64,000 bases of DNA from Cribrihabitans marinus (lineage in GTDB: Bacteria; Pseudomonadota; Alphaproteobacteria; Rhodobacterales; Rhodobacteraceae): contig NZ_FNYD01000004.1 in NCBI RefSeq assembly GCF_900109035.1, positions 248,001 through 312,000 on the forward strand, in the 5' to 3' direction. Positions 34,298 through 44,797 of the stretch are shown in pieces (position 1 is the stretch's first letter; each line of letters starts with the position of its first letter). A program made the translations under genes and the position numbers. The notes beneath the pieces are model-generated. The model worked only from the letters and a program-made list of their open reading frames with translations, searched no databases and was not told the origin of the DNA.

Positions 34298-35956
34298 ATG
34301 GAAGCGGATTTTGTCATCGTCGGGGCCGGGTCGGCCGGGTGTGCAATGGCCTATCGGCTGTCCGAGGCCGGGGCCTCGGTGCTGGTCATCGAACATGGCG
34401 GCAGCGATGCCGGCCCGTTCATCCAGATGCCCGCGGCGCTCAGCTATCCGATGAACATGTCGATGTATGACTGGGGCTTTCAGACCGAGCCCGAGCCGCA
34501 TCTGGGCGGCCGGCGCCTGGTCACGCCGCGCGGCAAGGTGATCGGCGGGTCGTCCTCGATCAACGGCATGGTCTATGTGCGCGGTCACGCGCGCGATTTC
34601 GACCATTGGGCGGAAAGCGGCGCGGCGGGCTGGGGCTATGCGGATGTGCTGCCCTATTACAAGCGCATGGAATCATGGCACGATGGCGGGCATGGCGGCG
34701 ACCCCGCCTGGCGCGGCACCGACGGTCCGATGTATGTGACCCGCGGGCCGCGCAGAAACCCGCTCTACCAGGCCTTTGTCGATGCCGGACGGCAGGCCGG
34801 CTATGAGGTCACCGACGACTACAACGGCGAAAAGCAGGAAGGGTTCGGACCGTTCGAGCAGACCGTCTGGAAGGGCCGGCGCTGGTCCGCGGCCAACGCC
34901 TATCTGCGCCCCGCGCTGAAGCGGCCCAATTGCGAGTTGGTGCGCGCGCTGGCCCGAAAGATCGTGATCGAGGATGGCCGAGCCACCGGTGTCGAGGTCG
35001 AACGCGGCGGACAGGTCGAGGTGATCCGCGCCCGGCGCGAGGTGGTTCTGGCCGCCTCGTCGATCAACTCGCCCAAGCTCCTGATGCTGTCGGGAATCGG
35101 TCCGGCGGCGCATCTGGCCGAACACGGGCTGGAGGTGATCGCCGACCGTCCAGGCGTGGGCCAGAACCTGCAGGACCACCTGGAGATCTATTTCCAGATG
35201 GCCAGCAAGCAGCCGATCACGCTCTACCGCTATTGGAACCTGTTCTGGAAAGGCGTGATCGGCGCGCAATGGCTGTTCACCAAGACCGGGCTGGGCGCAT
35301 CCAACAATTTCGAGAGCTGCGCCTTCATCCGCTCACGTGCCGGCGTGGAATATCCCGACATCCAGTATCACTTCCTGCCGATGGCGGTGCGCTATGACGG
35401 CAAGGCCGCCGCCGAGGGGCACGGATTCCAGGCCCATACCGGCCCGATGCGCTCGCCCTCGCGCGGCGAGATCACGCTGAAGAGCGCCGATCCCAAGGCC
35501 GCACCGCGCATCTTCTTCAACTACATGTCGACCGAGCAGGACTGGGTCGATTTTCGCACCTGCCTGCGGCTGACCCGCGAGATCTTCGCGCAGGAGGCCT
35601 TTGCGCCTTATGTCAAACACGAAATCCTGCCGGGGGCCGACCGGACCACAGATGACGAGCTGGACGGTTTTGTCCGCGAGCATGCCGAAAGCGCCTATCA
35701 CCCCTGCGGGACCTGCCGGATGGGGGCGGCGGACGATCCCGGCGCGGTCGTCGACCCCCACGCCCGGGTGATCGGGGTCGATCGGCTGCGCGTGGCCGAC
35801 AGCTCGATCTTTCCACGCATCACCAACGGCAACCTGAACGCGCCGTCGATCCTGGTCGGCGAAAAGGTCAGCGATCACCTGCTGGGGCGCGATGCCCTGC
35901 CGCCCGCGAACGACCGGCCGTGGATGCATCCCGACTGGAAGAGCAGCCAGCGCTAG
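34298..35956 (+). CDS. betA: Choline dehydrogenase
   Basis: GMC-family FAD oxidoreductase of 552 aa, the usual BetA length, converting choline to betaine aldehyde at the membrane. FAD motif '[18 protein letters not shown]', GMC signature regions '[22 protein letters not shown]' and '[16 protein letters not shown]', catalytic histidine in '[12 protein letters not shown]', and '[12 protein letters not shown]' near the end. Divergent from the choline importer, which supplies its substrate. betB, betC and betI are not here. Confidence 0.93.
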
Positions 35957-38613
35957 AGCTGGTTTCCGGCCCCGAGCCGGTGGGCGATGGCCTGCAGGAT
36001 GATGGAGTTGGTGTTGACGTCGGAATAGTTCTCGACCGGCAGGCCGGTCTCGACGAAGACGCCGGTGGAAAATCCCAGACCCTCGATCCGCGCGCGGTCG
36101 CGGACGTGTTTCATCAGCAACTCGGAGTAGGGATGCGGATGCACCGCATGCCACAGATAGGCGGCCTTGGAACTGACCAGCGCGATCTTGCGCTGGAAGG
36201 TCTCGGTTGAATACCGGGGATCGTCGGACACCGTCTCGACGCCCCAGCGCCGCGCCTCCGATCCGATGTCCAGCCCCTGATAGGTGAACCACGGGCTCTG
36301 GTTCACCGGGATTTCGGATACGCAGACCAGATCCCCGGTCCGGGCATAGGATTGCGCCTGCTCGGTGAACAGCACATCGGCCAGATACCGTGTCTCGGGC
36401 GACCAACCCAGCTCGATCGCCTCGAGCAGCAAGGGCTCGGCCCCGAGGAGACCGATCTCATCCGCGGCATAGAGAAGCCGCATCCTCTGGTCCGCCTGCG
36501 ACGACGACGCCGGATCATAGCGATAGGGCGAACGCACGGGCTTGTCGATCCGCTCGAAGGCCCGGGTCATGTAGTGGGTGCAGTGCGACAGGTAGAACGG
36601 CGCCGCGCGGCCGCGTTCCACATTGTGATAGATCCCGTCCGAGATCGTGGCGGCGATGTCCCATTCCTCGACCTTGGCATCGATGATAGGCAGCAACTCC
36701 GGCTCCTGCCGTAGCCGCGTCAGGGCCGAGAAAAGCCGGCCATTGTCGCAGGCGTTGAATTCCCGCGTCAGCACGCGCCCGCTCTTGGCCGAGATCTCGC
36801 TGGCCGGCAGGCGCATGCCGTTGATCTCGCTCACCGGAAGCAGGCCGAGCACCTGTTCCGCCCGGGCCAGGAATTCCGCTCGCGGCAGAAGCGCGAGATT
36901 TCCGGCCGATTGCAGCCCCAGAAGGTAGGAGCCGATATCCCACATGGTGATCTTGTCATAGACGAAGTCGCGACCGGGCCGGTCGAACACGGTGGCCGGA
37001 ACCAGGCCCGTGCGCTCGTGCCGCCGGCTTTCCAGATAGGTCAACGCCAGTTCCGCGTCCTTCATCAGCAGCCGGTCCTCACGCCCGGTCTTGCCGGCTG
37101 GCACAAGCGGCGCGGCCAGGTCCCGCAGGTTCTGTTCGCGCCGGAACTTGTCGAACACCGGGTCGATGGGCGTATGCGTCGCCAGATAGGCCGCGCGGTC
37201 CACGAACTCGGTGCCCGCGCCCTCGACCAGATCGCCCAGCGCCGCCGCCAGGCGCACCCGCTCGCCGCCCGAGGCCAGCAGATCCGGTGCGATGCGGATC
37301 ACCGCATCCTGGTAGCGGGACAACATCCCGTCCAGCCGCGCGATATCCGTGGCCGTGCGCAGATCCACGACCCGCCCCATGCGCAGATGCCCATCGGCGT
37401 CGATGCCCTGCGTCTGGCCCGGCTGTTGCAGCGCCGCCCCGACCCATTCCGTCGCGCGCCGCGCGCCCCCCTCGTCCCGCGGCCAGCACAGGGGCGTCGG
37501 TGCGGTGTCATCCTGCGCCGCGTCCAGCCCGTCGCCCGGCAGGCGGAAGGTCGGGCAATTCACGGGCTGGAACGGCCTTTCCGGGGCCGGGGCCGCAATG
37601 GCCCCCGAAGAAAGCCCGCGGATGCCGACATCCGCCAGGCGCCGGGCGAAATCCTCCAGCGCAGATGCCGGCGGGTCCGGTTGTGAGGGGTCCAGAACCA
37701 GGTGGATCTTCCGGCGATACCCCGGCAGGCTTTGGAGGTGAAAATCCGATGGCAGGGCCAGGTTGATTCGACCATTCGCGACCGCGCCAAAAACCCGCTC
37801 CACAATCGCGGATCCCAGGACATTCGCCTCGGATTCCGACAGATTGTCGATGTTTCTGAGGGCAATCTTGAGAGTCCCCGGGTTGGACTGGTCCGCCAGA
37901 AATTCTACTGCTGATTGCAGCCGCGCGTCAGATTCCGAGATCATCCAGGTCGCCCCGCCGGCCACGCGCAGGATCTCGCGGTCGGAGTATTCATAGAGCG
38001 GCCGGATGTTTCCGGGCGGCAGAATGAGCAGGTTTCGCAGGCCGGCGGCGCGGAATCCGCGCGGCCGTTCGATCCTGTCAGGCCAGTCGTCCGTGGCGGT
38101 GACAACGCGGTCGATCGCACCAATATCGCCGTCGCCATCGGCAAAGGCTTCGAGTATCCGGGCACGGATTTCCATCGCCGTACGCCCCTGGAAATAGGGC
38201 TTCATCTTGCTAATTCCCTGCATGTGCAAGGCAATCTCACCAAGCCCCGAATAGTTCAGCGCCAGGCGCGAAAAAAACCGTCGCAACGCGGCCGTGCGCA
38301 GCGGGTCGGTTCCCCGCCACCACGCGATGTCGAAAGAGAAGGTGAACGCGATCCCGGCTTGCGCCAGCGGCGTCACCAAAGCGCGCAGAACCGGCTCGGG
38401 CACGGCGGGCGAGACGTCGGAGAACACCAGGAACACATTCGTCGATCCGACCTCGGCCCGCAGCGGGACCGCGCGCAAGGACGTGGCGGCCAGCCCGGCG
38501 GCACCGGCCTGCAAGATCTGTCGCCTGTTCAGTCCACTCTGCAAGTCCAACAACCTTTGCGATAGTTGCACCGGATCTCCGGCGCCGCGCTTGCGCGCAT
38601 TTCCCTTGGACAC
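35953..38613 (-). CDS. Tat-exported DUF3131 protein, putative polysaccharide-acting enzyme
   Basis: Large protein of 886 aa. A twin-arginine signal '[21 protein letters not shown]' (Arg30, Arg31) predicts Tat export. Residues ~50-330 look like a deacetylase or glycosidase-barrel relative ('[11 protein letters not shown]', '[10 protein letters not shown]'). From ~480 onward is a DUF3131 domain ('[21 protein letters not shown]', '[15 protein letters not shown]'), an alpha/alpha-barrel related to glucoamylase-like proteins. Start is GTG at 38613; a second GTG at 38571 has a better ribosome-binding site (ggag) and keeps the whole signal. Divergent (77 bases) from the polysaccharide synthase, so joint function in exopolysaccharide metabolism is likely. 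Confidence 0.75.
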
Positions 38614-38690
38614 CCCCGAACTATAGAGCTTTAATCAAACGGCGCGCGGTCATCATTACTTGATCGTGCCTGGTCCGGGGGGGCTACGTT

Positions 38691-41600
38691 TTGCGTTTTG
38701 GTGGGTTCAAGCCCTCCGTCGGGCCGATCCGTCGGCAGGGCGGCGGCATCAATCAGGTTTTTGGCGCGGGTTCGCCTGTTCGGGGCAAGGTCCTCGTGGC
38801 GCTTGCCTCGTCCTTCTTCATCCTTCTCGGCCTGTGGGTTGCGGGCCTGACGCTCAGCGTTCTGATGGAACAGGGACCGCAAGGGCAGAACCTTGTGGCC
38901 CGGAATGCTCACACCCCGGGAACGCAGCCGCTGTTCGATTTCGAAACCGACGGCGCAGTGGATCTGGCGGTGGTCGAGCCGCATTCCCATGATCACGCTG
39001 CCGCCGCGCCGCAGGGCTGCACCAAGGGCGTCACGCCCGGTCGCGCCGGGTTCCAAAATGTCTTCGCCACAGTTCCGGTGCAACTGGAATGGATGGAAAC
39101 CTCGCTTGCGCAGGCGTGCGACGCGGTCGATGTGGTGATGCCCGAGTGGTACCACCTGGACGACGCTGGGCTCAGGACGCTGGCCAACACCGCTCCTGCC
39201 GCGGACAACGGCGTGACCCTGGACGGGCTTGGCACCGGATACCAGGCGATGCCGGTGGTGCGGGTGCCGGGCGATGCGCCTGATGCGCTGGTACATCTGA
39301 CCGAGCCCGATTCGCGGGCGCGGCTGGTGCGCGAACTGGCGCGCGTCACGACCTTTCCCGATCATGCCGGCGTATGCGTCGACCTGTCGGCCCTGCCCGT
39401 TGGACAGCTGGGCAGCATGGGCACCTTCGTTTCGGAGTTCGCGCGCGCGGTGTCGGACACCGGCCGGGACAGCTGCATCGCGCTTGGCGCCGACGCTCTG
39501 GACGGCGGCGCCAGCGGCTTGCTGGACATCACCGACAGGGTTCTCGTCAAGGCGTTCCGGCACAGGCTGGACAGCGGGACGCCGACCCCGGTCTCTGGTC
39601 GGGACTGGTACCGCGACACGCTCGCTGCCGCAACCACAGCCATCTCGCCCGAACGCCTGGTCCTGATGCTGGGCGCGGGTGGCCGCGCCTGGGAAAGCGG
39701 CCGGTCGGGCAGCGTTGCCATCGATTATGCCACTGCGATGGAGGGGCTTGCGGGCAACCGCGGTCGCAGCAAATTCGCAACCGCGTCGGAAAACACGCTG
39801 ATCACCTATCTGGATTCGACAGGCAGGCGGCATCAGATCTGGCTTGCCGGAGCCGCGACGACCTACAACCAGATGCTCGACGCGCGGAGCGCCGGGGTGC
39901 GCAATATCGGGATCTGGGGCCTCGGCCGCGAGGATCCCAGCCTGTGGCCGCTTCTGACCGAAGCCACGCTCGACGCCGAGACCGCGCTGCCTCTTCTGGA
40001 ACAGGTCGATCTGTCCGGTCACGTCCGCTATTCGGGCGAAGGCCCGTTCCTGGATTTCACTGAAAGCGGCGCTGCCGGACGCCGGACGGTTCGCATCGAT
40101 GCGCAGACCGGCCGCGTCGCCGACCTGCGCTATGCCGCTCTGCCGCGCCCCTACTCGGTGCGGCGCTGGGGCCGGCCGGACGAAAAGGTCGTGGCGCTGA
40201 CCTTCGACGATGGCCCGGACACGGCGGCGACCGGGCCGATCCTGGACATTCTGGCCGAGGCCGGTGTCACGGCGTCCTTTTTCCCGGTCGGAACGCAGAT
40301 GCTGGTCGAACGGGACATGGTTCGCCGGGTCATCAACGAGGGCCATCTGGTCGGTTCGCACAGCTTCTCTCACAGCCAGATGGATCAGGTCAGCGACCGG
40401 CGCATCCGGACCGAGCTGAACCTGCAGGCGCGGATCTTGGCCAGCGTGGCCGGGCACACGCCGGTCATGTTCCGGGCACCCTTCGTGCGCGGGCGCGGGC
40501 CGATTGCCGGGACGATCGCGCAGAAGATGCACATGGTCGACCAGATAGGCTATCTGACCCTCGGCAGCGAGATCGTGCCCCCCGACTGGGAGATCGAGAG
40601 CGCCGACCAGATCACCGAATTCATCATCCGCTCGGTGCTGGACGGCGATGGCAACGTCATCCTTTTGCATGACGGCGGCGGCGACCGCAGCGCCACTGTC
40701 GAAGCCCTGCCCGCCGTCATCAGCGGACTGCGCGCCGAAGGCTACCGCTTCGTCAACCTCGACGAGTTGGCCGGACTGGGCCGCGCTGACCTGATGCCGG
40801 TGGAGTTCGGGTCGCGCAAGGTCTTCGAACGCTACGCGATCGCCGCCCTGGGCGGCGGTTTGAGCGTTCTGAAAGTCGCGTTCTGGGTGGTGATCGGGCT
40901 GGGCCTGTTCCGGGCGCTTGTCATGTTGACGCTGGCCCTGCGGCGCGGCCGCGACAGCACGGTCCTTCCCCTGCATCGGCCCAGTGTCACCGTGCTCGTG
41001 CCGGCTTATAACGAGGAAAAGGTCATCGTCCGCACCGTGCGGTCGATCCTCGCCTCGCGCTATCGGAACCTGTCGGTGATGGTCGTCGACGACGGATCCA
41101 CCGACGACACCAAGGGCGTGGTGCAGCGCGAATTCGCCAACGATCCGCGCGTGACCCTGCTGTCCCAGCGAAACCAGGGTAAGTGGAAAGCCGCCAACAC
41201 GGCCTTCGGCAGCGTGACCAGCGAGATCGTTGTGGCCATCGACGCCGACACGCTGGTCGATCCCGAGGCGATCGGCCGGCTGGTTCCGCATTTCGCCGAT
41301 CCCGATGTCGGCGCCGTGGCCGGCAATGTCATGGTCTGCAACCCGGGCAACCTGCTGACCCGGCTGCAATCGGTCGAATACATCACCGCCCAGAACATCG
41401 ACCGCCGCGCCTTCGAGACCCGCAACGCGATGATGGTCGTCCCCGGGGCGATCGGCGCCTGGCGCGTTGACGCCGTGCATGATGCCGGGCTCTATTCGGC
41501 GGAAACCATGACCGAAGATGCCGACCTCACCGTCTCGATCCTGCGCTGCGGCTACCAGGTCCGCTTCGAGGAGCGGGCCTATACCTTTACCGAAGCGCCC

Positions 41601-42149
41601 GAGACCGTTCGCGCCTTCCTCGCGCAGCGCCTGCGCTGGTCGCTGGGCATGATGCAGACCGCCTGGAAACACCGCCGCGCGCTGCGCGAGCAGGGCGCGC
41701 TGGGCCGCTGGACCTTTCCCGATCTGCTGATCTTCGGCGTGCTGATCCCGGTCTTTGCGCCGGTCGTGGACCTGGTCATCCTGCTCGCACTGGCCGGCAT
41801 AGCCGTCGACCTGGTGCAGGGCACACCGATTCTGGACGGGCCTGTGTCGGGGATGGTTCTGGCCGGGTGCCTGGTTCTGCCGGTTATCGAGACGATCGTA
41901 ACCGTAACGGCGTTCGTGCTGGAACCGAGGGCAAGCAGGAGACTGTTGCTGGTCCTGCCCATGCAGCGCATCTTTTTCCGCCCGCTGCTGACACTCACCG
42001 TCTACCGCGCCCTGTGGCGCGCGCTGACCGGCCGGCTGGCCAGCTGGAGCAAGCTGCGGCGCACGGCCTCGGTGAATCTGGCGGAACTTGTCAAACAACA
42101 ACCGGCCTATGCGCTTACGTCGGAAACGTCCGGCAGCCGCTCTCGGTGA
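38691..42149 (+). CDS. Trifunctional polysaccharide synthase: GH18-like + polysaccharide deacetylase + GT2
   Basis: Membrane protein of 1152 aa. A membrane span (~33-58) leads to a periplasmic GH18-like domain (~85-470), then a NodB-type deacetylase (~498-695: 'TFDDGPD' with Asp506/Asp507, His557 and His561 in 'SHSFSH', 'RAPF'), a second membrane span (~725-750), a cytoplasmic GT2 glycosyltransferase (~762-1000: Asp800-Asp801, 'DAD' 851-853, 'TEDAD' 941-945, 'QRLRW' 979-983) and C-terminal membrane helices. It thus joins PgaB- and PgaC-like activities: polymerising an amino sugar, probably N-acetylglucosamine, and deacetylating it outside. The GH18-like part lacks the catalytic Glu. Start is TTG at 38691 after a G-rich stretch. 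Confidence 0.85.
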   Translation: MRFGGFKPSVGPIRRQGGGINQVFGAGSPVRGKVLVALASSFFILLGLWVAGLTLSVLMEQGPQGQNLVARNAHTPGTQPLFDFETDGAVDLAVVEPHSHDHAAAAPQGCTKGVTPGRAGFQNVFATVPVQLEWMETSLAQACDAVDVVMPEWYHLDDAGLRTLANTAPAADNGVTLDGLGTGYQAMPVVRVPGDAPDALVHLTEPDSRARLVRELARVTTFPDHAGVCVDLSALPVGQLGSMGTFVSEFARAVSDTGRDSCIALGADALDGGASGLLDITDRVLVKAFRHRLDSGTPTPVSGRDWYRDTLAAATTAISPERLVLMLGAGGRAWESGRSGSVAIDYATAMEGLAGNRGRSKFATASENTLITYLDSTGRRHQIWLAGAATTYNQMLDARSAGVRNIGIWGLGREDPSLWPLLTEATLDAETALPLLEQVDLSGHVRYSGEGPFLDFTESGAAGRRTVRIDAQTGRVADLRYAALPRPYSVRRWGRPDEKVVALTFDDGPDTAATGPILDILAEAGVTASFFPVGTQMLVERDMVRRVINEGHLVGSHSFSHSQMDQVSDRRIRTELNLQARILASVAGHTPVMFRAPFVRGRGPIAGTIAQKMHMVDQIGYLTLGSEIVPPDWEIESADQITEFIIRSVLDGDGNVILLHDGGGDRSATVEALPAVISGLRAEGYRFVNLDELAGLGRADLMPVEFGSRKVFERYAIAALGGGLSVLKVAFWVVIGLGLFRALVMLTLALRRGRDSTVLPLHRPSVTVLVPAYNEEKVIVRTVRSILASRYRNLSVMVVDDGSTDDTKGVVQREFANDPRVTLLSQRNQGKWKAANTAFGSVTSEIVVAIDADTLVDPEAIGRLVPHFADPDVGAVAGNVMVCNPGNLLTRLQSVEYITAQNIDRRAFETRNAMMVVPGAIGAWRVDAVHDAGLYSAETMTEDADLTVSILRCGYQVRFEERAYTFTEAPETVRAFLAQRLRWSLGMMQTAWKHRRALREQGALGRWTFPDLLIFGVLIPVFAPVVDLVILLALAGIAVDLVQGTPILDGPVSGMVLAGCLVLPVIETIVTVTAFVLEPRASRRLLLVLPMQRIFFRPLLTLTVYRALWRALTGRLASWSKLRRTASVNLAELVKQQPAYALTSETSGSRSR

Positions 42150-42723
42150 TCGGCCCGCGGGCAACCGGATAGTTCGGCTGGGGGTTCATGATGATCTTCT
42201 GCACGCCGGTGAAGGAATAGGCGCATTGCGTCGCGCGCGTCTCGCCGGCCCGCCGCCCGTCGATATAGACATCCAGCCACGGAAGCCCCCTGTGCCCGCT
42301 GTGACACGGGCCATCCTGCGGACGCAGACCATCGCCGCACACATCCTCGACGATCACGTATTTCCGCAGCTTGGTCAGGTAGAACCGGGTGCCCGCCGGG
42401 TAGTCCAGCGTCTGGCGCCCGCCCGAGATGACATGGCCCACGGCAATGGTGATCGGGTCGGTGTAGGTTCCGGTGCCGCCGGCAGAGCGGCGCAACACCG
42501 GGCGCGCGATGGCGGCGGATCCGCGGGGGGTATTGTCCCAGAAACTGTATCCGGTGATATAGGCCGGGAAGCTGCGCTCGCGCGGGGCCGCACGGACGGC
42601 GCTCACCGATTCAAGCTCGGAGTTCGGCAGGTTCGCCCGGCTTGCGGTGGGATTGCCGGTGGAACACGCACTCAGTACGGCGGCCAGTCCAAGGGTCAGC
42701 GTCAGCCTGGTAATTCTGTTCAT
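42115..42723 (-). CDS. Lipoprotein, possible double-psi beta-barrel domain
   Basis: Protein of 202 aa with a lipoprotein signal ('LAAVLSAC', lipid on Cys20). The mature part contains 'YSFWDNTPRGSAAIARPV', 'AVGHVISGGRQTLDYPAGTRFYL' and 'KYVIVEDVCGDG', reminiscent of double-psi beta-barrel or 3D-type domains found in cell-wall and expansin-like proteins, with a conserved-looking Asp. The gene is convergent with the polysaccharide synthase and overlaps its last 35 bases. It may act on cell wall or exopolysaccharide; function not established. Confidence 0.65.
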   Translation of the reverse strand: MNRITRLTLTLGLAAVLSACSTGNPTASRANLPNSELESVSAVRAAPRERSFPAYITGYSFWDNTPRGSAAIARPVLRRSAGGTGTYTDPITIAVGHVISGGRQTLDYPAGTRFYLTKLRKYVIVEDVCGDGLRPQDGPCHSGHRGLPWLDVYIDGRRAGETRATQCAYSFTGVQKIIMNPQPNYPVARGPITESGCRTFPT

Positions 42724-43013
42724 GTCCCACCTTCGCGCAGCTATCGTTCCACCTTCCTTAACTTACGCAACATTAGGTCATCGGTAGGGCGAGGAAAGCG
42801 CATAAAATGGGCATAAACATGCTGGAAACCGGGCGTGATCAGCAAATGATCGCCGGGATTCAGGTCGATCGCCACCGCTTGCCGCCGCCAAGGACCAAGA
42901 GGATCTTGCACAAGACCCCCTTCCAAAAGCCGCGAATTCGCCCTACATATTCGAACCAGAGAATGTTTCGGCGCGCCACCCGCACCCGAGACGCAAGCAA
43001 CAGGAGACGCAGC

Positions 43014-43445
43014 ATGGAAACCGAATTCACTCCTTTCGCCTCGCTGGCCGGCGGCGCGCTGATCGGCGTCGCGGCGGTGCTGCTGATGCTCTCGCTGGGT
43101 CGCATCCTCGGGGCGACCGGGATACTTGCCGGCCTTTTGACCCCGGCGAACCCGCGCGAGTTTGCCTGGCGCGCGGCGATGATCCTGGGCATGATCTCGG
43201 GACCGCTGGCTGTTCTGGCGCTGACCGGTTCGATGCCGGAAATCGAGGTCCCGGTCTCGACCCCGATGCTGGCGCTGGGCGGGCTGATCGTCGGTGTCGG
43301 TGTCACCTTCGGATCCGGTTGCACCTCGGGGCACGGGGTCTGTGGCATGGCTCGTCTGTCGCCCCGGTCGATCGCCGCGACGGCGACCTTCATGGCGGCG
43401 ACCTTCGCCACCGTCTATGTCATCCGCCACGTGATCGGAGCCTGA
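43014..43445 (+). CDS. YeeE/YedE-family sulfur transporter, half 1
   Basis: Membrane protein of 143 aa with four hydrophobic segments and the family motif 'GSGCTSGHGVCGMARLS', whose cysteine is used to pass thiosulfate or another sulfur species in characterised TsuA/YeeE. Ordinary YeeE is about twice as long; the second half is the next gene. Start at 43014 has a ribosome-binding site (caggagac); longer frames to 42807 are not supported. First gene of a three-gene sulfur operon. Confidence 0.88.
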   Translation: METEFTPFASLAGGALIGVAAVLLMLSLGRILGATGILAGLLTPANPREFAWRAAMILGMISGPLAVLALTGSMPEIEVPVSTPMLALGGLIVGVGVTFGSGCTSGHGVCGMARLSPRSIAATATFMAATFATVYVIRHVIGA

Positions 43446-43448
43446 CCC

Positions 43449-43889
43449 ATGCGCCTTCTCGTCACCTATGCGATCGGCCTGATCTTCGGCATCGGCATCT
43501 CGGTCTCGGGCATGATAAATCCGGCCAAGGTCCTGAATTTCTTTGACATCGCGGGATCCTGGGATCCGTCGCTGGCCTTTGTGATGGGTGGCGCGCTGGC
43601 CGTCACCTTCCTGGGCTACCGCCTGGTCCTGTCCCGCTCCGCACCGGTCATGGGACCGGAATTCCAGTTGCCGACGAAACGCGACCTGGACCCGAAACTG
43701 ATCGGCGGATCGGCTCTGTTCGGGGTGGGCTGGGGCATTGCCGGCTTCTGCCCCGGCGGCGCCCTGCCGGCGCTGGGAACCGGCCGGTTCGAGGTCGCGA
43801 TCTTTGTCGCGGCCCTGATTGCGGGTATCCTGCTGGCCCGCGCGATCCAATCCACCATGCGGCGCCGCAACACCGACGCGCCCGCATGA
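43449..43889 (+). CDS. YeeE/YedE-family sulfur transporter, half 2
   Basis: Membrane protein of 146 aa starting 3 bases after half 1. It carries the second pore signature 'GFCPGGALPALGTG' plus 'GISVSGMINPAKVLNFFDI'. Together the two halves would rebuild one complete YeeE-like channel. Known relatives in sulfide-detoxification operons sit beside a persulfide dioxygenase, as here. Confidence 0.88.
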   Translation: MRLLVTYAIGLIFGIGISVSGMINPAKVLNFFDIAGSWDPSLAFVMGGALAVTFLGYRLVLSRSAPVMGPEFQLPTKRDLDPKLIGGSALFGVGWGIAGFCPGGALPALGTGRFEVAIFVAALIAGILLARAIQSTMRRRNTDAPA

Positions 43890-43912
43890 CCCCGCATCAC
43901 GAGGATTTCGAC

Positions 43913-44797
43913 ATGGCCCAATACCCCGTGAACATGGACCTCCGGCCCAAGGTCGATGCGTTCTTCGACGAGGCGACCAACACGATCAGCTATATCGTGC
44001 AGGACCCGACATCGGACGCCTGCGCCATCGTCGACAGCGTGATGGACATCGACTATGCCGCCGGTCGCATCACCCATGACCATGCCGACAGGCTGATCGA
44101 CACGATCCGGCAGCGCGGCCTGACGCTGGAATGGATCATCGAGACCCATGTCCATGCCGACCACCTGTCCGCCGCGCCCTATATCCAGGACAAGCTGGGC
44201 GGCAAGGTCGGCATCGGGGCGAATATCCAGCTGGTGCAGGACACCTTCGGCAAGATCTTCAACGAAGGCACCGAGTTCCAGCGCGACGGCAGCCAGTTCG
44301 ACGCCCTGTTCCAGGATGGCGATACCTACACCGTGGGCCACATGCAGGGTTTTGCCATGTTCACGCCGGGGCATACGCCCGCCTGCATGGTGCATGTGAT
44401 GGGCGATGCGGCCTTTGTGGGCGACACGCTCTTCATGCCCGATGGCGGCTCGGCCCGCGCCGATTTTCCCGGCGGCGATGCCGGCACGCTCTACGACTCG
44501 ATCCAGAAGGTGCTGTCCCTGCCCGACGCCATGCGCCTGTTCATGTGCCACGATTACGGCCCCAACGGCCGCGACATCCAGTGGGAGACGACCGTGGCCG
44601 AGGAAAAGGCCAACAACATCCATGTCGGCGGCGGCAAGACGCGCGAGGAGTTCATCAAGTTCCGCACCGAGCGGGACGCGCAGCTGGCCATGCCGCGGCT
44701 GATCATCCCGTCGCTTCAGGTGAACATGCGCGCCGGAGAGATCCCGACCGACCAAGATGGCAATCCGCAGCTCAAGGTGCCGGTCAACAAGCTCTGA
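43913..44797 (+). CDS. MBL-fold hydrolase, persulfide dioxygenase-like
   Basis: Metallo-beta-lactamase-fold protein of 294 aa with iron/zinc ligands 'THVHADHLSAA', 'FTPGHTPAC', 'GDTLF' and 'CHDYGP', closest in style to ETHE1/Blh-type persulfide dioxygenases, which oxidise glutathione persulfide. The ATG at 43913 has a well-placed 'gagga'; an alternative ATG at 43886 overlaps the previous stop as ATGA. Placement right behind two YeeE/YedE halves supports a role in sulfide or sulfane-sulfur detoxification. The usual BigR-type regulator gene is not adjacent. Confidence 0.87.
   Translation: MAQYPVNMDLRPKVDAFFDEATNTISYIVQDPTSDACAIVDSVMDIDYAAGRITHDHADRLIDTIRQRGLTLEWIIETHVHADHLSAAPYIQDKLGGKVGIGANIQLVQDTFGKIFNEGTEFQRDGSQFDALFQDGDTYTVGHMQGFAMFTPGHTPACMVHVMGDAAFVGDTLFMPDGGSARADFPGGDAGTLYDSIQKVLSLPDAMRLFMCHDYGPNGRDIQWETTVAEEKANNIHVGGGKTREEFIKFRTERDAQLAMPRLIIPSLQVNMRAGEIPTDQDGNPQLKVPVNKL

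Follow-up and report, generated by a model that had tools for sequence, protein, structure and literature searches.

Genetic organization of the locus

The 64,000-nucleotide stretch of Cribrihabitans marinus analysed here and called the window (RefSeq assembly GCF_900109035.1, contig NZ_FNYD01000004.1, positions 248,001 to 312,000; surrounding genome, 4.18 Mb) carries three adjacent genes with the appearance of a small exopolysaccharide cassette. They encode a membrane-bound synthase, a protein with the domain DUF3131 that is predicted to be exported by twin-arginine translocation (Tat), and a lipoprotein whose gene converges on that of the synthase and overlaps its 3' end by 35 bp. An earlier note made from the sequence of the window had proposed the three as one functional set, and the positions it gave for their open reading frames are confirmed (Table 1). 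The gap between the two divergent genes is presumably the promoter region of both. Neither of these genes starts with ATG and either start could shift, that of the synthase being uncertain.

Table 1. Features of the cassette (positions are those of the window; aa, amino acids)
Feature	Position	Strand	Length	Description
DUF3131 protein, Tat-type exported	35953..38613	-	886 aa from GTG start	N-terminal alpha/beta region; decayed deacetylase-like middle region; C-terminal predicted (alpha/alpha)6 DUF3131 barrel (about 505-886)
Intergenic gap between divergent starts	38614..38690	.	77 bp	
Synthase	38691..42149	+	1152 aa from TTG start	Transmembrane segment (about 41-59); GH18-like domain without catalytic Glu (about 130-440); CE4 (495-693); transmembrane segment (about 732-750); GT2 (764-985); two C-terminal transmembrane segments
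Lipoprotein	42115..42723	-	202 aa	Lipobox LSAC; conserved D-C-G-D-G and W-L-D motifs; weak double-psi-beta-barrel likeness

The synthase

The earlier note had described a tri-domain synthase. Its deacetylase and glycosyltransferase parts were borne out by Pfam, as CE4 (PF01522, residues 495-598, E = 1.6e-25) and GT2 (PF13641, residues 764-985, E = 8e-32), and the third domain, which it had not identified, was found to be GH18-like. Hydropathy peaks at about residues 41-59, 732-750, 1017-1035 and 1059-1077 would place the GH18-like and CE4 domains outside the inner membrane and GT2 inside. The GT2 domain scored highest against PgaC_IcaA, with 179 bits (NodC 115, CelA 64) as compared with an equivalog cut-off of 422 bits (TIGR03937).

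Motifs were scored in 49 aligned fusions, leaving out one cut by a contig end (L007) and one with a split frame (L010). Those that we take to mark a processive GT2 (DD, DxD, ED and QxxRW) were intact in all 49, the window synthase included. The motifs that we take as those of CE4 (TFDDGP, HxxxH, RxPY/F and HD) were intact in the window synthase and in 47 of the 49; L076 and L085, the two in which they are not, make up a single branch of the tree. One genome (G126) holds two copies of the fusion, one with the CE4 catalytic residues lost and one intact, and at L010:9329-12847 the synthase frame is broken into two pieces.

Residues 146-423 of the synthase match the "probable chitinase" structure 5jh8 (E = 6e-9, phmmer only). 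Pfam gave no match of PF00704 (GH18) to the window synthase at E 0.1, and three sister fusions that were scanned scored 41-53 bits, above the cut-off of 29.6. We take the GH18 catalytic signature to be of the DxxDxDxE type, with the catalytic Glu; at this place the window synthase reads GVCVDLS, and the Glu is lost. It is absent from 28 of 28 fusions that belong to the cassette (25/25 loci and 3/3 plasmid loci) and kept by 27 of 28 fusions that lack a DUF3131 neighbour (a first set of 24 and four later loci: L086-L089, L128-L147 and L155-L158). The first set lies outside the Rhodobacteraceae and retains a V/I-D-F/L-E motif in 23 of its 24 members; the four later fusions, also from outside the family, come from a search of the phylum made once this pattern was apparent, and all four retain the Glu. 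The sole non-cassette fusion without it is L089, where a free GH18 protein encoded one gene away has the motif DGIDIDWE intact. Among the called genes beside the non-family fusions no DUF3131 match was found at 20 loci and the 4 later loci, and the only PF11329 match in the genomes of the other four was partial, in a frame of 2991 aa (G152).

The order of G288 yielded 62 genomes that matched the fusion, and wide flanks were taken from 20 of them, plus G288 and G152. Of 69 genomes in one genus of this order (g155), 60 have a match to the GH18-CE4-GT2 fusion, in some cases to part of it, and L128-L147 are without DUF3131. The large membrane proteins that often adjoin the fusions of this genus look, as we would judge, GT39-like. 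A gene of the N-acetylglucosaminidase type lies nearby in 4 of 24 sister loci (identified with Pfam in one, the four being grouped by similarity).

Linkage and distribution of the three genes

Co-occurrence of the fusion with DUF3131 had been named beforehand as the test of the proposed set, and its absence as the refuting outcome; co-occurrence is what was found. Fifteen named loci, nearly all of them from Rhodobacteraceae, were fetched starting from the synthase. The DUF3131 gene adjoins the synthase gene in 14 of the 14 that hold that side, the fifteenth (L007) being cut by a contig end within the synthase; all 14 pairs are divergent, and the lipoprotein is present in 12 of the 15. A survey of the family that took one genome per genus, 149 in all, found full-length fusions at 12 loci of 11 genomes, leaving out of the count a GT2-only frame of 582 aa (G013), and each of the 12 had a DUF3131 neighbour with an open frame of at least 826 aa. 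Long DUF3131 proteins away from fusions were not found in these 149 genomes, the other long frames matched by DUF3131 (1593-2974 aa) being partial matches of the size of cyclic glucan synthases. These surveys scored the best few candidates per genome (four for the fusion, two in the phylum search and up to 18 for the lipoprotein), so that misses are possible. The association of the three genes is far above chance, which supports their treatment as one functional set.

The arrangement of the pair is less constant than its presence. Divergent genes were seen in 5 of the 12 survey loci, and in the other seven both genes run in the same direction with the synthase first; in L075, L079, L081, L082 and L083 they overlap by 4 bp. 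Since the pair persists in two arrangements, the linkage has outlived rearrangement. The pair also occurs on plasmids of Sulfitobacter and Limimaricola, where it is annotated as "glycosyltransferase" and "DUF3131 domain-containing protein" (five plasmid records examined of 13 with a DUF3131 match). Beyond the trio, the commonest neighbour family (including ABC-transporter ATPases, by eye) occurs in 12 of 31 neighbourhoods and every other in at most six.

The DUF3131 protein

The export proposed for this protein agrees with a twin-arginine motif, NRRQIL, in the window copy and with an RR pair in 27 of 30 aligned homologues, the remainder being gapped at this place. PF11329 (DUF3131) covers residues 519-879 (E = 8e-55, 186.8 bits against a cut-off of 20.3). 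Structure prediction, which the earlier note had suggested, was carried out with AlphaFold2 and gave a model with a mean predicted local distance difference test score (pLDDT) of 78.9, residues 511-880 being mostly above 85. This part is modelled as an (alpha/alpha)6 barrel and resembles the beta-1,2-glucanase 8xuj (Foldseek E = 4.6e-9), the GH189 structure 8wy1 (Z 33.3, root-mean-square deviation 2.8, 338 residues aligned) and the GH144 structure 5gzh (Z 28.0, deviation 3.2, 338 residues aligned). Among the matches listed, Z was 22-33 for entries of the SGL group, and the next matches were sugar 2-epimerases and glucoamylases of the same general fold (Z 18-22). The DUF3131 domain is thus predicted to share the fold of beta-1,2-glucan enzymes.

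By sequence, no solved relative was found with phmmer up to E 5, and a profile search retrieved only 8wy1 (E = 0.3). Sequence profiles are in agreement with the predicted fold: profile-profile comparison (hhalign), with a profile built on 14 long and 7 short DUF3131 rows, matched nine cyclic-glucan-synthase domains at 93-97% probability, and the Pfam DUF3131 model itself matches frames of cyclic-glucan-synthase size.

The general acid of the SGL clan is a Glu (E1356 of TiCGS), and the nucleophile of GH189 is E1442 (PMC10834661, PMC12102758). At the general-acid position the canonical DUF3131 proteins, the short type described below, have Glu, mostly within GYE[QE]Y, in all 38 rows that cover it (of 40), whereas none of the 36 rows of cassette DUF3131 proteins, which represent 26 distinct sequences, has it, the residue being A, S, T or N. 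Residues D623, E726, E767 and D865 are conserved in all 36 cassette rows, and D559 in all except both rows of one gene (L037/L082), which have E. We infer from the alignment that E767 falls at the E1442 position. D865 is new in the cassette type, the canonical proteins having T, S or A. When the sub-region of the catalytic residues was compared separately, hhalign gave E = 0.14-0.42, which is not significant, and the mapping to TiCGS therefore rests on motif and fold; the published spacing E1356/E1400/E1442/H1536 was exact in 5 of 9 extracted cyclic-glucan-synthase rows, the other four missing at least one search pattern. A plain SGL-type hydrolase was considered for the DUF3131 protein and is weakened by the loss of the general-acid Glu.

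The N-terminal part gave no significant hhalign match to CE4 or GH18 sets when examined as NodB-like. Better evidence for deacetylase ancestry, for the middle part only, comes from a Mesorhizobium plasmid protein that aligns with most of the long DUF3131 protein (27% identity, E = 2e-60). Its middle domain matches DUF2334 (E = 8e-6, 25.9 bits against a cut-off of 26) and CE4 (E = 0.001) and retains the DD and HxxxH deacetylase motifs, which are absent from 29 of 29 aligned cassette DUF3131 proteins. On that plasmid (L161:1-4106) an unfused GT2 gene overlaps the gene for this Tat-type deacetylase-like and DUF3131 protein by 4 bp. It seems that a live deacetylase sits either on the partner, as this one sequence suggests, or on the synthase.

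The lipoprotein

By identity to the window copy the lipoprotein (50-52%) is better conserved than the synthase (38-40%) and the DUF3131 protein (29-33%). No Pfam domain scored over its cut-off, and the lipobox does not occur in every homologue, L009 being an example without it. The model has a pLDDT of 66, and double-psi-barrel proteins, for example MltA, expansins and GH45, are frequent among its top structural matches, at Z 4-5.1; relationships to beta-glucosidases or histone deacetylases were rejected as chance likeness. The lipoprotein was found in 7 of the 149 family genomes, all of which have the fusion, adjoining the cassette in six and one gene off in the seventh (G121). Its gene may lie downstream of either gene of the pair or upstream of the synthase gene, and among the seven survey copies that of G070 is interrupted by an in-frame stop. 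Stand-alone paralogues sharing a D-x-C-G-D-G motif were seen at L091:7762-8316, L092:7124-7657, L093:6882-7418 and L094:7181-7873, of which one lies in the same genome as the window.

Export across the outer membrane

The earlier note had remarked on the lack of a PgaA-like porin gene next to the trio and had reasoned that export would then differ or be encoded at another site. The whole genome likewise has no such porin over the cut-off: PgaA (TIGR03939) gave one match, of 22 bits against a cut-off of 367, a search that a divergent porin would escape. No family beyond the trio recurs in more than 12 of the 31 neighbourhoods, although neighbours were not each scanned for porins. Two Poly_export (Wza-type) proteins are encoded elsewhere in the genome, and a protein of this family lies next to the synthase in two (L087 and L089) of the four non-family fusions L086-L089, a hint that a Wza-type route may serve export. 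With no porin recognised, passage of such a polymer through the outer membrane is a sharp question that this locus raises.

Comparison with known systems

Known systems had been said to use separate proteins for synthesis and deacetylation. This is too strong, and the contrast drawn with PgaABCD overstates the novelty of the synthase, because a CE4-GT2 fusion is already known and functional in Streptomyces. There MatB is a single chain whose CE4 is extracellular and whose GT2 is intracellular; it is required for production of poly-N-acetylglucosamine (PNAG), and the nearest characterised relative of its GT2 is PgaC (PMC5972031). The window synthase has the same arrangement, with CE4 outside and GT2 inside as judged from hydropathy. 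The two differ in that MatB, as described there, has two functional domains with no GH18-like domain reported, its partner MatA has no known domain, and the organism is Gram-positive and has no outer membrane.

PgaABCD and IcaADBC resemble the cassette in a PgaC-like GT2, a deacetylase, a glycosidase-fold domain and a logic of synthesis, deacetylation and trimming (PMC5933820). Here, however, CE4 is fused to GT2 and not to a glycosidase, and the barrel of the partner is SGL-like rather than GH153. PgaB combines CE4 with GH153 in a separate protein; the CE4 seen at this locus lies within the synthase. The SGL group (GH144, GH162 and GH192-194 of clan GH-S; GH189) shares the predicted (alpha/alpha)6 fold and, by alignment, E767, but not the general-acid Glu that canonical DUF3131 proteins have.

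Canonical DUF3131 operons consist of a GT2, an OpgC-like acyltransferase and two or more DUF3131 proteins. Like the cassette they join DUF3131 to a GT2 of cellulose-synthase-like type, and they differ in that the DUF3131 proteins are short (392-657 aa, two broken pieces aside), retain the Glu and have no fused deacetylase that we could see. In other Rhodobacteraceae (L063-L073 and L163) we saw an operon for two short DUF3131 proteins with the clan Glu, together with an OpgC-like acyltransferase, a GT2 resembling cellulose synthase and, in many cases, STAS/anti-sigma genes. This operon is comparable to a Klebsiella block of cellulose synthase, three DUF3131 proteins and OpgC that has been described (PMC12974863). 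The GH18-CE4-GT2 fusions of other Proteobacteria have the same three-domain synthase but an intact GH18 Glu (27/28) and no DUF3131 alongside.

In open-licence PMC papers, by title and start of abstract and among the matches listed, no literature on a GH18-CE4-GT2 fusion was found, and those naming DUF3131 gave no function for it in the parts available. Within the same literature we did not find described the GH18-like domain, its decay alongside a DUF3131 partner, or an SGL-like fold with an altered site.

Proposed role of the cassette

We consider it somewhat likely that the three genes form a PgaB/MatB-like, synthase-dependent exopolysaccharide cassette, made up of a GT2-CE4 synthase and a DUF3131 processing partner. 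The polymer is probably based on N-acetylglucosamine (GlcNAc), which is favoured because of the PgaC-like GT2, the CE4, the chitinase-family ancestry of the third domain and the analogy with MatB. From the computed domains, motifs, conservation, linkage and predicted fold we infer the polymer, the activities, the order of steps and the export route as follows. GT2 would polymerise the chain, probably from GlcNAc, and move it across the inner membrane, and the fused CE4, given its intact motifs, would deacetylate it on the periplasmic side. The GH18-like domain would no longer be a chitinase and would probably only hold the chain. The Tat-exported DUF3131 protein would process or guide the chain in the periplasm, a counterpart of PgaB in role and not in descent, through a barrel with the predicted fold of beta-1,2-glucan enzymes, a rearranged active site and E767 and D865 as candidate residues; its deacetylase-like region appears decayed, as though the CE4 on the synthase had left it without a task. 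At the envelope, glycan would be bound or trimmed by the lipoprotein, which may be a double-psi-barrel.

Several observations weigh against this proposal. There is no recognised export porin, and since the GT2 lies far under the PgaC equivalog cut-off a PNAG product is not established. The barrel fold indicates beta-1,2-glucan enzymes and not GlcNAc enzymes, and the barrel may be catalytically dead, given that the residue aligned with the general acid is not Glu. Two cassette fusions (L076 and L085) have a dead CE4, the lipoprotein was not found in 4 of the 11 survey genomes that bear the fusion, and the Mesorhizobium case is a single sequence whose deacetylase match is just under the Pfam cut-off. 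Finally, a single branch of the tree divides cassette from non-cassette fusions, and for this reason the contrast between GH18 and DUF3131 may amount to nearly one evolutionary event.

The near-complete exchange of the GH18 Glu for a DUF3131 neighbour, together with the free intact GH18 beside the one exception, could be taken to mean that the DUF3131 protein is an active glycosidase with a rewired site, which replaced the chain-cutting role of the fused GH18. We regard this as possible, at somewhat less than even chance. It would agree with the invariant D623, E726, E767 and D865 and the nearly invariant D559, but it has to contend with the single split on the tree and with A, S, T or N at the general-acid site of every cassette row. 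Loss of the canonical catalytic positions in both modules could also be explained if the DUF3131 and GH18-like modules were pseudo-enzymes that only bind the chain and guide it towards export; this we think unlikely, as several acids kept throughout and a newly fixed D865 would be unusual in a purely binding module. That the product is a glucan, perhaps beta-1,2 or mixed, and not a GlcNAc polymer appears improbable. Such a product would suit the barrel fold and the company that canonical DUF3131 pairs keep with a GT2 and an OpgC-like acyltransferase ("BcsA-like" and "OpgC-like" as read by eye), as in the Klebsiella report (PMC12974863). Against it stand a CE4 fused to the synthase, which implies an acetylated polymer, the best match of GT2 to PgaC, the chitinase-family GH18 of the three sister fusions scanned, and the N-acetylglucosaminidase-type gene near four sister loci.

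Returning to the exopolysaccharide cassette that we favour, we suggest only tentatively that it is an undescribed system, carried by Rhodobacteraceae and roseobacter plasmids, that does without a PgaA-type porin and has shifted processing from a fused chitinase domain to a free Tat-exported barrel with a relocated acid (general-acid Glu lost, D865 gained). If so, the DUF3131 proteins would be a new glycosidase family related to beta-1,2-glucan enzymes, and the cassette a natural example of domain swapping among synthase-dependent systems. A domain of unknown function gains a predicted fold, testable residues and a probable role, and a family rich in surface-living bacteria gains a conserved, partly plasmid-borne polysaccharide cassette.

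Neighbouring genes

No polysaccharide cluster surrounds the trio in the window, and the flanking genes, with translations read by eye, are mostly of the transport, choline-oxidation and sulfur types. At positions 42807-44797 two YeeE/YedE-like membrane open reading frames are followed by one with a metallo-beta-lactamase fold, which we take to be a set related to sulfur metabolism.

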